Position numbers and translations under genes: made by a program. Of a DNA stretch of 7,794 nt, positions 1 through 7,222 are shown piece after piece. Location of the stretch: the NCBI GenBank assembly GCA_003646585.1, contig QMLA01000037.1:1-7794 (forward strand), in the 5' to 3' direction. Source of the DNA: Deltaproteobacteria bacterium (GTDB lineage Bacteria; Desulfobacterota; B13-G15). How positions within the stretch are numbered: the stretch's first letter is position 1; each line of letters begins with the position of its first letter. The notes beneath the pieces are model-generated. The model did no database searches. It saw only the letters and a list, made by a program, of their open reading frames with translations, and was not told the origin of the DNA.

Positions 1-70
1 CTCCCACCCCGAAAAAACCCCCGAGGGTCCCTATGACCAATCCCACCCATACTGCAAGCACCAAGCCCAT
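1..70 (-). CDS. TauE/SafE (TSUP) family anion exporter, N-terminal fragment (cut by window edge)
   Basis: Only the first 23 codons are in the window; the gene continues beyond position 1. The translation from ATG at 70-68 contains GLVIGTLGGFFGVG, a hydrophobic first membrane helix with the glycine-rich GxxxGxxGxGG-like pattern that opens TSUP (TauE/SafE) permeases. Known members of the family export sulfite, sulfoacetate or related anions across the inner membrane. The start is supported by AAGGAG at 86-81, ten bases upstream, which is rather long spacing; a weaker AAGGG lies only two bases from the ATG. It begins 37 nt after the sat stop codon on the same strand, so it is probably the next operon gene. 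An exporter for sulfur oxyanions would fit behind a sulfate-activating enzyme. Alternatives are any other small multi-helix membrane protein with a glycine-rich first helix. The assignment rests on one short motif plus context. Confidence 0.6.
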   Translation of the reverse strand, partial: MGLVLAVWVGLVIGTLGGFFGVG

Positions 71-107
71 TTCCCTTATTCTCCTTGGGGCAACCCGAGG
101 GGGAGGG

Positions 108-1280
108 TTACTTCAAGGTTCCCGAATAGTACTCCCTCAGGATCTCCACGACCTCGGGACGGCTGAATTCTTCGGGCACCGGTTTCCCTTCCGAAAGCAT
201 CTTCCTCAGCATGGTACCGCTTAGCATCAAGCGATCCTGCTCCCCATGGGGGCATGTTTTGAAGGAGGCCATCTGCTTGCACTTATAGCAGTAAAAGGTC
301 CAGTCCACGGGGAACATCCTTATGGCCAGGGACCCCTCCGGGATCTCGTAAAAGATCTTCTGGGCATCGAAGGGACCGTAGTAATTGCCGACACCCGCGT
401 GATCCCTCCCTATGATTATGTGGCTTGCCCCATAGTTCTGCCTTATCAAGGCATGTAGAAGCGCCTCCCTCGGCCCGGCATACCTCATCTCCATGGGATA
501 CACCTTGTTAACCACCCGCTCCTGGGGGAAGTAATTGCGCAAAACGGCATCCACGCACCTAACCCGCACCTCGGCAGGGATGTCCCCCTCCTTGAGCTTT
601 CCCACCAACTGGTGCACGAAGAGGCCATCGGAGATCTCCAGGGCGATCTTTGCGATGTACTCGTGGGAGCGATGCATGGGATTGCGCAACTGAAGGGCCA
701 CCACCGTCCTCCAGCCGCGTTCCCGAAAGATCTCCCGGGTCTCCCAGGGACGCGCATAAAGGCCGGGGAAACGCTGAGGGTAGTCCAGTTCGCTGAAAAC
801 CTTGACGGGCCCCGCCAGGTTAAACTCCCCCTGCGCCAGGACCTTCGCCACACCGGGATGCTTCGGGTCATCGGTCCGGTAGACCTGCCTGCACTCATAT
901 CGCTTGTCAATCGTGTAGATCTCCTCAATCATCATGATCCCCATCAAACTCCCGCTTTCCCGGTCCACCAGCGCCACTTCTTGACCTTCCCTGAGTCCGG
1001 TGGCCTCCTCCTTGGAGGCCGAAAGGGTGATGGGGATAGGCCAAAAGGTACCATCCTTCATCCTCATCTGCTCACAAACCTTCCTCCAATCCTCGCTGCC
1101 CATAAACCCCTCCAGAGGACTGAAGGCCCCTATCCCCATCATTATCAGGTCCGAGGTCTCCCTGGAGGTCATGTAAACCCTGGGAAGCCCCTCGGCCCTC
1201 TTTCTCTCCTCGGCCAACTCCTCTCCCTCAAGCAATCTCGGGGTCAACCTCCCTCCATGAGGCGGCACCAGTTCGGCCAT
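108..1280 (-). CDS. sat: Sulfate adenylyltransferase (ATP sulfurylase), homo-oligomeric type
   Basis: Cytoplasmic enzyme that interconverts ATP + sulfate with adenosine 5'-phosphosulfate (APS) + pyrophosphate. It can run forward (sulfate activation) or backward (ATP from APS). The 390-residue length is typical of the single-chain Sat of sulfate reducers and other prokaryotes, with no C-terminal APS kinase domain. The N-terminal PUA-like domain spans about 1-165 and the catalytic alpha/beta domain follows. Active-site motifs are intact: QLRNPMHRSHEY at 197-208 (QxRNPxHxxH) and GRDHAGVG at 291-298. C331, C334, C343 and H345 (CYKC...CPH) form a probable zinc site like the one known in bacterial Sat. 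The ATG at 1280 has AGGAGG six bases upstream (1291-1286). The gene starts 18 nt after the CysD-like gene and uses a TAA stop. Sampled GC is about 60-65%, higher than the permease gene. Family call is firm; direction of the reaction in the cell is unknown. Confidence 0.96.
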   Translation of the reverse strand: MAELVPPHGGRLTPRLLEGEELAEERKRAEGLPRVYMTSRETSDLIMMGIGAFSPLEGFMGSEDWRKVCEQMRMKDGTFWPIPITLSASKEEATGLREGQEVALVDRESGSLMGIMMIEEIYTIDKRYECRQVYRTDDPKHPGVAKVLAQGEFNLAGPVKVFSELDYPQRFPGLYARPWETREIFRERGWRTVVALQLRNPMHRSHEYIAKIALEISDGLFVHQLVGKLKEGDIPAEVRVRCVDAVLRNYFPQERVVNKVYPMEMRYAGPREALLHALIRQNYGASHIIIGRDHAGVGNYYGPFDAQKIFYEIPEGSLAIRMFPVDWTFYCYKCKQMASFKTCPHGEQDRLMLSGTMLRKMLSEGKPVPEEFSRPEVVEILREYYSGTLK

Positions 1281-1298
1281 ACTCCACCTCCTGCAACA

Positions 1299-5399: not shown

Positions 5400-5408
5400 C
5401 CCTATCCT

Positions 5409-6434
5409 TCAGCGGGCCTTGTATGCCGCTATGAGCTTTTCGGCCTCTTCGAGGATCTCCCTTCCGGGAAGCCCCCTCTTCTCCATCTTCTTCACCCATT
5501 CTTCGCGCAAGGGCTTGACCCTCTGGACCCACCTCTGCCGCTCTAGCTCAGGAAGGTCATAAAACTCATCCCCCCTGTCCATCATCCATTTGATGTCCCT
5601 TTCCTGAAACCGATCAAATACCGAACCGCACAACTTGGCTCCATAACGTCCCGTCAATTCCGTCAGCACCTTCTGATCTTCTGGAGAAAGACTGTTCCAC
5701 TTATCCAAGTTCATGACCACATAGAAGCTGGTACACAGCAAGTCAGCATTGGTATGGTAATGCACCAGTTCAGCTATTTTTTGCGATTTCAAAGGAGCAT
5801 ATGGCAACATACATCCGTCAACCACACCTTTCTGCAAAGCCATATAAACGTCCACCATTGGAATACTTTCTGGTACAGCACCCAACTTCTTGAGGATCTT
5901 CAATCCCATTGCACTTCCACTGCTTATGACCAGCCCGCGCAGATCTTCCAATTTGCGAACAATAGTCTTCCTGAAATGCAATTGGAAAGTAGGATTTGCA
6001 TACAGCCAAAGGAGCTTAACCCCTTTGTACTCCTTCTGCATCTGGGGGAATTTCTCATACAATTCCCACAAAACCAAGCTGTTGATCACAGCACGGGATG
6101 TTCCCAACATCGGAAGATTTATCACTGTAGAGAGAGGAAAACGGTCAGGGGCGTATGTCGGACAGGACACAGCGATGTCACATATGCCGCTCATGGTGGC
6201 ATCATATGCCTCTTTCACGCTCGCTAGGGCATTGGAAGGAAACAGGGTAACCTTGACTCTTCCCTGGGTGCGTTTTTCGACCTCCTTTGCCCATACAGTG
6301 AAAGCGTCGGTGTTGATGGGATGTTTAGGAGCATACATGCTATTGAATTTCAACTCTATCACCGCATGACCTTGAAAGGGCAAAAACAATATCGATATCG
6401 CCGCCATAAAGGCAATTATTAACCCTTTCTTCAT
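5409..6434 (-). CDS. dctP: TRAP transporter periplasmic substrate-binding protein, DctP family
   Basis: A 341-residue secreted binding protein that catches the substrate in the periplasm and hands it to the DctQM permease. The N-terminus is a classical signal peptide: MKK, a hydrophobic stretch to about residue 20, then GHA with likely cleavage after A24. The mature protein has DctP landmarks: FNSMYAPKHP (30-39), WAKEVEKRTQGRVKV near 48-62, DLRGLVISSG (164-173) and YMALQKGVVDG (197-207). In most characterised DctP proteins the segment DLKGxKIR carries an arginine that pairs with the ligand carboxylate. Here the matching position is serine (S171), so the ligand or its binding mode may differ. 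The ATG overlaps the regulator stop as ATGA, and a near-perfect AAGGAGGTGA lies six bases upstream, inside the end of the regulator gene. It is followed 9 nt later by the permease gene. Substrate is unknown; an organosulfur anion is suggested only by context. Confidence 0.95.
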   Translation of the reverse strand: MKKGLIIAFMAAISILFLPFQGHAVIELKFNSMYAPKHPINTDAFTVWAKEVEKRTQGRVKVTLFPSNALASVKEAYDATMSGICDIAVSCPTYAPDRFPLSTVINLPMLGTSRAVINSLVLWELYEKFPQMQKEYKGVKLLWLYANPTFQLHFRKTIVRKLEDLRGLVISSGSAMGLKILKKLGAVPESIPMVDVYMALQKGVVDGCMLPYAPLKSQKIAELVHYHTNADLLCTSFYVVMNLDKWNSLSPEDQKVLTELTGRYGAKLCGSVFDRFQERDIKWMMDRGDEFYDLPELERQRWVQRVKPLREEWVKKMEKRGLPGREILEEAEKLIAAYKAR

Positions 6435-7222
6435 AATTCACCTCCTTTTTGTGTTTTCTTCAATAATTTTTGATAAGGCTCATAATCTGCTTTAACCTTT
6501 TTTCTAAGCATTTTTAAATACAACTTTTCCAACCTCAGCATCTGTTTGTTTATATTGAGAATATGCTCGACTGCCTTCTTCTGTGCTCTTACCTCATCCT
6601 GTTTCAGGATGGCTTCAAATATCTCTCTGTGGATCGTACGTTCGTGGATCACTTCTTTTACGGGTTTAATGGTCAGGACAAAGTGTTCCGTGAAGTCCAT
6701 AATGGAATTAATAATTACAGAATAAAAGGGATTGTGCGAAGCCTTACCGAGAGCACGGTGAAAATTGACGTTGTGTTTTATATAATCCGTCCCCGGTTCG
6801 CCTACTTCGGAAAGGTAAGCCAGGTGTTCGAGGATCCTTATATCCTCCCCAGTCCGCCTAAGGGCAGCCAAGCGGGCGACCTCGGGTTCCACATGCAGTC
6901 TGACCTCATAAAGTTGGCTTACGGAAACCTTGCCGAAGAAGAGCAAATCACTGAGGTTTTGCTGGATGATGGCAGGATCCAGCTCGCGGACAAAGGCCCC
7001 TCCTGTTGCCCCTTGCCTTACCTCGATAAGGCCATTTAACTCCAAGTACCTTATCGCTTCCCTTATGACCAGCCGGCTTACCCCGAAACGCTCCGCCAAC
7101 TCCGTCTCTGAAGGAAGCCGATCGCCTACGCCATAATCCCCCGAAAGGATGGCCTTCTTGAGGACCTCGGCTATCTCTTCGTAAAGCCTCCTGCGCCTGA
7201 AAGGAAGGGATACCCCCTGCAT
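6431..7222 (-). CDS. GntR-family transcriptional regulator, FadR/FCD subfamily
   Basis: A 263-residue DNA-binding regulator that probably controls the operon in response to the imported compound or a metabolite. The winged helix-turn-helix covers about 12-80 (LPSETELAERFGVSR at 36-50, recognition helix through VIREAIRYLELNGLIEV, wing GATGGAF). An all-helical FCD ligand domain covers about 100-235. FCD domains often hold a metal with one Asp and three His; here the matching residues look like N151, H155, H198 and H220, so the usual aspartate is replaced by asparagine. About 30 residues at the C-terminus are lysine-rich and lie beyond the usual FCD end. The ATG at 7222 has no Shine-Dalgarno sequence; the region before it is the promoter/operator itself. 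Frequent neighbour of TRAP operons. Its stop overlaps the dctP start (ATGA), so the two are translationally coupled. Confidence 0.95.
   Translation of the reverse strand: MQGVSLPFRRRRLYEEIAEVLKKAILSGDYGVGDRLPSETELAERFGVSRLVIREAIRYLELNGLIEVRQGATGGAFVRELDPAIIQQNLSDLLFFGKVSVSQLYEVRLHVEPEVARLAALRRTGEDIRILEHLAYLSEVGEPGTDYIKHNVNFHRALGKASHNPFYSVIINSIMDFTEHFVLTIKPVKEVIHERTIHREIFEAILKQDEVRAQKKAVEHILNINKQMLRLEKLYLKMLRKKVKADYEPYQKLLKKTQKGGEL

Follow-up and report, generated by a model that had tools for sequence, protein, structure and literature searches.

The stretch of DNA analysed here (the window; 7,794 nucleotides, contig QMLA01000037.1 of the Deltaproteobacteria bacterium assembly GCA_003646585.1) carries on its minus strand an operon in which genes of a TRAP transporter are followed by genes for a beta-propeller protein, a PP-loop protein (PPL) and the ATP sulfurylase Sat. 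We found that propeller, PPL and Sat form a recurrent unit together with an uptake system whose transporter class is exchangeable. It is probable that this unit is a conserved module that handles organosulfates or transfers sulfuryl groups and has an uptake system of its own. The presence of Sat is commonly taken as a sign of sulfate reduction; the Sat module described here recurs in genomes without a detected adenylyl sulfate (APS) reductase.

Recurrence of the gene set

A PP-loop profile was used to scan a species-genome collection. It gave 149 confirmed matches, of which the best 80 were kept as 79 distinct loci, and the neighbour content of these loci was scored by tblastn with the module proteins. 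Sat was found in 22 loci, the propeller in 36, a TRAP permease in 13, TctA in 10, a PF00884-type protein in 20, a PF01663-type protein in 22 and TSUP in nine. Genes for TRAP or TTT transporters were present in 20 of the 40 loci with Sat or propeller versus none of the remaining 39. Because TRAP genes are abundant here (27 of the 44 genomes described below have DctM-like matches at 1e-70), locus counts were also compared with an even spread, under which 0.52 TRAP permeases would be expected in 42 loci and eight were seen; both comparisons ignore kinship among the loci.

The closest relatives showed the same core after TTT genes, and the window follows the same plan with TRAP replacing TTT. The order TctC, a small protein in the TctB position, TctA, GntR-family regulator, propeller, PPL and Sat was found in L050, L051, L053 and L058, and also in L047 when joined with the contig piece L143. 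Locus L048 has a similar order from TTT through propeller and PPL to Sat without the regulator. Regulators of the TTT loci resemble the window GntR protein only in part (34-38% over 88-124 amino acids (aa)). TRAP and Sat occurred together in other orders in L046, L055, L062, L066, L067 (divergent) and L069, and in L071, whose record bears the name Acetomicrobium hydrogeniformans, the TRAP gene is distant and on the opposite strand. An earlier note on this DNA had proposed the TRAP genes as part of the unit; an uptake system does belong to it, but TRAP itself is exchangeable, with TTT in the closest relatives. The ordered set next to TRAP, which the same note suggested might be conserved, likewise held in part: propeller, PPL and Sat with an uptake system recur, but the exact order DctP-DctQM-propeller-PPL-Sat was found in no second genome among the 79 loci or in a 395-genome sample of the phylum. 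In that sample the window-type propeller was rare (eight genomes at 1e-60, the window's own included), and its places were loci already in our set plus one new contig piece, L143. As the gene set was found in several lineages, its restriction to this one genome, which would have refuted the note's proposal, is not borne out.

In a tree of the PP-loop proteins (79 rows, four of them unlabelled, fusions trimmed to the last 290 residues) all 39 rows with Sat, propeller or PF00884 neighbours fell into one clade of 40 (95/91). The 40th row has none of the three, and the Nitrospirota rows lie outside the clade. The tree leaves out L061, L068, L075, L085, L102 and L113, which are Sat or propeller loci whose PP-loop open reading frame (ORF) was truncated or lost to an overlapping frame during ORF selection. 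Record titles within the clade, mostly labels of metagenome-assembled genomes, name delta-proteobacteria, Pseudomonadota, Chloroflexota, Bacillota, Actinomycetota, Acidobacteriota, Synergistota, Spirochaetota, Atribacteria, Aerophobetes and Verrucomicrobia. Searches of open-access full texts turned up no description of this gene set.

The propeller and the PP-loop protein

The propeller gene (2171..3517, minus strand) encodes 448 aa that Pfam, profile and structure matches describe as an arylsulfotransferase/NHL-like beta-propeller with a C-terminal beta domain. The whole protein reached the Pfam gathering scores of the arylsulfate sulfotransferase (ASST) families PF05935 (36.6 versus 24.2 bits) and PF14269 (34.4 versus 27 bits), with no single stretch passing alone, and an in-register profile match linked it to the ASST-type propellers of related loci. 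Residues H161, N121 and R136 align, through a mapping in two alignment steps, with the sulfuryl-carrying His436 and with Asn358 and Arg374 of E. coli ASST. All three are invariant in 65 of 65 relatives, as is H68. Judged by sequence, the propeller is thus arylsulfotransferase-like with the sulfuryl-carrying His conserved. Its closest known counterparts are the ASSTs independent of 3'-phosphoadenylyl sulfate (PAPS), such as AssT and Cpz4, from which it differs by an extra C-terminal domain, a Tyr in place of His356, its position beside Sat, a CysD-like protein and a transporter, and the absence of a hydrophobic N-terminus, which by a crude test is also missing from 40 of 43 locus propellers. 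E. coli AssT, by comparison, is placed in the periplasm in an account of that enzyme (PMC13426309).

PPL (1299..2141, minus strand; 280 aa) matched PF01507 with 83 bits (cut-off 22.5). The best PDB match of its profile was CysD (1zun_A, 8e-33), including the ERxGR...M...GY C-terminus, and its fold matches were FAD synthase, APS reductase and CysD. The protein nevertheless stays far below the CysD model TIGR02039 (32.7 versus 396.6 bits) and, unlike the small subunit of CysDN, is encoded beside a complete Sat, with CysN over cut-off in only one of 44 genomes. Homologues are labelled PAPS reductase by database sources. The APS and PAPS reductases of the CysH type have their catalytic Cys in the C-terminal tail; PPL ends in RLRKLGYM, has no Cys after residue 225 and scores far below the cut-offs of CysH models. 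By sequence PPL is closest to CysD. With CysN missing from most of the genomes and no CysH-type Cys in the tail, APS reduction and ordinary CysDN activation are both unlikely functions for it.

The C-terminus of PPL was also found on other proteins of the loci. The pattern RL..LGY was present in 68 of 74 PP-loop ORFs, 8 of 43 propellers (in L056, L057, L063, L064, L065, L067 and L076), 7 of 23 ORFs of the PF01663 cluster (L046, L066, L068, L070, L073, L077 and L097) and 4 of 24 ORFs of the PF00884 cluster (L071, L073 and two fusions), counting cut and split ORFs. Outside these groups it occurred in 2 of 750 ORFs of at least 100 aa (L059_00 and L040_07, both pieces of such proteins) and in the 80-aa ORF L062_09; among shuffled tails 7 of 18,280 matched. 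Since unrelated folds share both the tail and the locus, a common docking partner is suggested, with the window propeller itself lacking the tail. Among the database relatives listed, 118 of 120 PP-loop proteins and 0 of 120 window-type propellers carried the pattern, so that the tail as an expected feature of window-type propellers was rejected.

Some further observations concern the PP-loop family. A PF00884 protein and PPL are naturally fused in one 707-aa frame in L056:8702-10825 and L057:4279-6402 (domains were scanned for L056). Protein clusters c5 (15 loci) and c8 (11 loci) adjoin mostly Nitrospirota PP-loop relatives, often with a PF01663-cluster protein; their members L093:532-2595 and L093:4973-6361 score as PEP-CTERM/XrtA kinase PrsK and its response regulator, so that the family has a second setting of exopolysaccharide-like character. 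Distant relatives are found on plasmids (L032 and L033, Desulfolutivibrio; L034, Halopiger) beside TatA-like and chemotaxis genes or genes annotated as sulfatase, alkaline phosphatase and glycosyltransferase.

Sat, the fate of APS and a possible sulfuryl route

Sat (108..1280, minus strand; 390 aa) scored 413 bits with TIGR00339 (cut-off 323) and 534 bits with NF003166. The motifs QxRN, HxxH and GRDHAG, which we take to be those of the Sat active site, are intact in alignments. This Sat is the only one found in its own draft genome. The best PDB match was 4dnx, presumably Sat from Allochromatium vinosum; the related known setting is dissimilatory sulfur metabolism, in which sat occurs with apr and qmo. 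The sat gene of A. vinosum is described in PMC3779200. In contrast to that setting, none of the 23 genomes with a Sat-bearing PP-loop locus showed AprA over cut-off.

This count comes from a search of 44 genomes for AprA, DsrA, APS kinase and CysN, comprising the window's own genome (G000), a genome of the same family (G001) and those that carry 43 of the 79 loci, namely all 40 with Sat or propeller plus L059, L079 and L084; loci L052 and L060 were assigned to G007 and G031, respectively. Sat was detected in 35 of these 44 genomes. AprA over cut-off was found in 3 of the 44 overall and DsrA in eight, including 2 of the 23 Sat-module genomes (G061 and G070). These three AprA- and eight DsrA-positive genomes served as positive control, and none of 14 control genomes had AprA or DsrA. 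A clear APS kinase (E < 1e-25) was present in 3 of the 23 (G064, G065 and G090) and 10 of the 44, and a strong CysN-like match in 4 of the 23 (G060, G065, G086 and G090) and 6 of the 44, of which one was over cut-off and five more were below it with E < 1e-50. The window's own genome, which is 68% complete, gave no match to AprA, DsrA, CysN (1e-30) or PF00884. Sat was kept even where it is of a distant type (L069, L070, L076 and L077). A single-cell genome of the Dehalococcoidia is reported to contain no sulfate-activation genes (PMC4959651, a statement on one genome).

With AprA absent, a clear APS kinase mostly absent and Sat retained even as a distant type, AMP is the simplest sulfuryl sink. 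The proposed route would begin with an organic sulfate ester entering through TRAP, or TTT in relatives. The propeller would take the sulfuryl group on H161, by analogy with ASST, and pass it to AMP together with its CysD-like partner, so that APS would be formed; binding of the adenylyl side would fall to the CysD-like protein, which might present AMP or APS. Sat running backwards would convert APS and pyrophosphate to ATP and sulfate, TSUP would export the sulfate, and the desulfated organic remainder would be degraded by enzymes differing between loci. We infer the substrate class, AMP as the acceptor, how propeller and CysD-like protein share the work, that Sat runs backwards and which ion is exported. 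The sequence of organosulfate import, sulfuryl transfer to AMP, ATP formation by reverse Sat and sulfate export is therefore put forward tentatively, as a possibility that falls short of an even chance. More doubtful is the fuller picture of anaerobes conserving energy from sulfate esters, with a cytoplasmic propeller His carrying the sulfuryl group to AMP, Sat in reverse yielding ATP and the RL..LGY tail holding the CysD-like protein and its neighbours together. If true, the module would be a route into organic sulfate esters with breakdown linked to ATP formation, and the reverse-Sat route would be the desulfation counterpart of phosphorolysis. It would also give a function to signal-less ASST-like propellers and CysN-less CysD-like proteins, and name testable gene sets in poorly cultured bacteria.

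The earlier note had suggested a dedicated route for a sulfo group with the key chemistry in the propeller and the PP-loop protein. This idea has gained from the recurrence of the set, the ASST-like propeller, the CysD-like PPL and the lack of AprA; the sulfuryl group may be either taken off the substrate or put onto it. Of the two substrates named there, sulfonate or sulfate ester, the likeness to ASST favours sulfate esters rather than sulfonates.

Several points weigh against sulfuryl transfer by this module or against parts of the route. Substrate, product and direction are conjectural, and the use of AMP by an ASST-like enzyme is purely so; a single APS step also leaves the presence of two ATP-sulfurylase-like proteins in one operon unexplained. 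The top Pfam matches of the propeller are PQQ_2 and NHL repeats and its best structural matches are NHL propellers, with Cpz4 appearing only at Foldseek rank 19 (and again at 26). The position of ASST His356 is Tyr119 in 65 of 65 window-propeller relatives; among the ASST-type propellers from the loci, 7 of 14 have His there. Neither G001 nor G007 gave a propeller match at 1e-60. In G007 (contig C50), which has the same order, PPL and Sat are whole and the propeller is matched over only 28 residues from its start and 40 from its end (L036:1015-1215), a remnant due to deletion or misassembly. Sub-threshold AprA-like flavoproteins occur in 2 of the 23 Sat-module genomes (G064 and G067), and APS kinase is matched by Pfam cut-off in 22 of the 44 genomes, mostly as short P-loop pieces; the match in the window's own genome (23.6 bits, 3.9e-5, positions 2-56 of 152) is formally over the cut-off. 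Absences are soft because the draft genomes are incomplete (the window's own is 68% complete). TRAP transporters are abundant in these genomes, with four other DctM-like matches in the window genome, and the permeases nearest to that of the window do not belong to module loci (G060:C15 and G067:C72, 57-58% over the M part; G067:C252, 49%). Finally, the PF00884 neighbours have Thr where a formylglycine sulfatase has Cys, and the window genome has no PF00884 protein.

The gene content would be explained almost as well by sulfation as an activation step, in which sulfate is turned into APS by Sat and either the propeller or the CysD-like protein sulfates the imported compound, providing an activating or leaving group, with sulfate later leaving through TSUP. 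Sat and CysD normally make APS, no usual consumer of APS is clear in most genomes, and catabolic neighbours differ between loci (CoA transferase, ETF, IlvD, MTTB) as a shared activation step would allow. We still consider this direction unlikely. By general stoichiometry it would cost ATP, in genomes of which 21 of 23 gave no DsrA match and 23 of 23 no AprA match over cut-off, and the donors of known ASSTs, as given in one account of these enzymes, are aryl sulfates and not PAPS (PMC13426309).

That the propeller is instead an NHL-type enzyme, a lyase or hydrolase with the imported compound as its substrate, with PPL and Sat serving another adenylyl- or sulfate-dependent step, is suggested by the NHL propellers at the top of the structure matches, by virginiamycin B lyase, amidating lyase and lactonase further down these lists, and by AP-superfamily neighbours with a Thr nucleophile, which we take to be more phosphodiesterase-like. 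The in-register match to ASST-type profiles and the conservation of the sulfuryl His and its Asn and Arg partners in all 65 relatives speak for sulfuryl transfer and make this alternative rather improbable.

Ordinary assimilatory or dissimilatory sulfate reduction, with TSUP importing sulfate, Sat forming APS and the PP-loop protein reducing it to sulfite, could be read from PF01507 as the PAPS reductase family, from homologues named PAPS reductase and from the APS reductase fold match. It is very unlikely given the RLRKLGYM end without Cys past residue 225, the CysH models far below cut-off, and AprA and DsrA over cut-off in 0 and 2 of the 23 genomes. A chance or loose adjacency of a carboxylate TRAP operon and an unrelated Sat block would agree with the other DctM-like matches in the window genome and the lack of the exact TRAP order in a second genome, but is hardly credible given that the gaps measure 7 to 29 nt, that there is a single palindrome, and in view of TRAP or TTT in 20 of 40 versus 0 of 39 loci and eight TRAP permeases where 0.52 were expected.

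Uptake, regulation and neighbouring genes

The window spans the whole of contig C37, so that its left edge has no extension in this assembly; the draft genome comprises 1.39 Mb in 284 contigs. Its seven genes, all on the minus strand, encode a GntR/FCD regulator, DctP, a fused DctQM, propeller, PPL, Sat and the start of a TSUP-like protein, with intergenic gaps in this order of -4, 9, 7, 29, 18 and 37 nt; coordinates and families agree with the one-strand layout first described.

DctP, the TRAP solute-binding protein (5409..6434, minus strand; 341 aa; PF03480 162.5 bits), has Ser171 at the position of the carboxylate-binding Arg147 of SiaP. Arg is reported there for 5943 of 6142 members of the family (PMC4646407). 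Six other module DctP proteins also lack it (Ile in L046, Gly in L054 and L067, Ala in L062 and L066, Leu in L069), while those of L056 and L085 have Arg. As the six are 25-35% identical to the window DctP, loss of the Arg in one ancestral event is possible judging from these sequences. The missing Arg argues for an unusual ligand and not for a sulfate ester as such, because the rare sulfonate and phosphate ligands described for the family also contact the conserved Arg (PMC4646407) and IseP binds its sulfonate through Arg156 and Arg177 (PMC11668362). IsePQM, a TRAP system that takes up isethionate (PMC11668362), resembles the window system in the uptake of an organosulfur compound that we propose, and differs by the Ser in the window DctP and by the lack of a visible sulfonate lyase in the window. 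A 442-aa database protein, P0184, joins a DctP start to a window-type propeller; it is probably a metagenome chimera, consistent with DctP and propeller genes adjoining elsewhere. The permease is a fused DctQM of 624 aa (3525..5399, minus strand; PF04290 88 bits, PF06808 327 bits). A TRAP subfamily specific to the module found no support, the nearest permeases being outside module loci.

At the other end of the operon, the gene for a TSUP (TauE/SafE-like) exporter is cut by the contig end, leaving the first 23 codons (2..70, minus strand), a fragment too short for Pfam, which gave no match. The assignment comes from the sequence and from comparison with G001, which has the same order as the window, PPL with 96% identity over 116 aa (cut by a contig end), Sat with 89% and, directly after Sat, a full-length TSUP homologue (L040:6122-5151). 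Fragment and homologue open with the same GLVIGTL-GFFGVG stretch, and the homologue is 51% identical to a protein of L046 that scores 168.5 bits with PF01925. Beyond TSUP in G001 come genes for a short fragment resembling DctM (25% over 169 aa), a protein of metallo-beta-lactamase fold, a regulator of GntR/FCD type and members of the isocitrate/isopropylmalate and 2-hydroxyacid dehydrogenase families; this gives the nearest view of what may be present beyond the left edge of the window.

The regulator (6431..7222, minus strand; 263 aa) belongs to the GntR/FCD family (PF00392 68 bits, PF07729 75 bits) and reached the cut-off of none of the 25 NCBIfam models shown, out of 31. Its start codon is abutted by a perfect 9+2+9 inverted repeat, TTTGTTATA-CA-TATAACAAA (7222..7241, minus strand), which is the only such site in the window even at up to three mismatches (0.01 sites expected) and represents a predicted operator that GntR may bind. 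Promoter-like and terminator-like sites in the window were at chance level (11 versus 8.6 and 9 versus 8.7 in shuffles); the minus-strand promoter-like sites at 3283 and 1620 lie inside genes, and no minus-strand terminator-like site was found from DctQM to the end of Sat.

Proteins of PF00884 adjoin the PP-loop gene in many related loci, as in formylglycine sulfatase operons. The signature of formylglycine sulfatases is C-x-P-x-R. In 20 of 24 proteins of the main PF00884 group (cluster c3) it is replaced by GPYT[QE], and the other four have no C-x-P-x-R in the printed stretch; as Thr replaces the formylglycine Cys, and with the window genome lacking a PF00884 match as a further difference from such operons, these neighbours were rejected as formylglycine sulfatases. 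Catabolic neighbours vary by locus, with CoA transferases and ETF in L069, IlvD in L062, MTTB in L063, Octopine_DH in L053 and amidohydrolases in L051 and L053. Between two propeller-PPL copies of L051 lies a protein with double [4Fe-4S] domains (L051:10929-12074) that is weakly reductive dehalogenase-like (PF13486 25.9 bits, cut-off 24.3). The small proteins of cluster c22 (L069, L076, L079) together with L070:10954-11259 recur near Sat or PPL in four loci, and the one scanned, in L070, is a DUF6955 protein. Sat is apparently split into several frames in L060/L037:9415-10588 and L055:7430-8251. Upstream of the GntR gene, the end of the window contig holds an IS110 transposase-like remnant (minus strand, 7435-7794; NF033542 46 bits, below the cut-off of 140).

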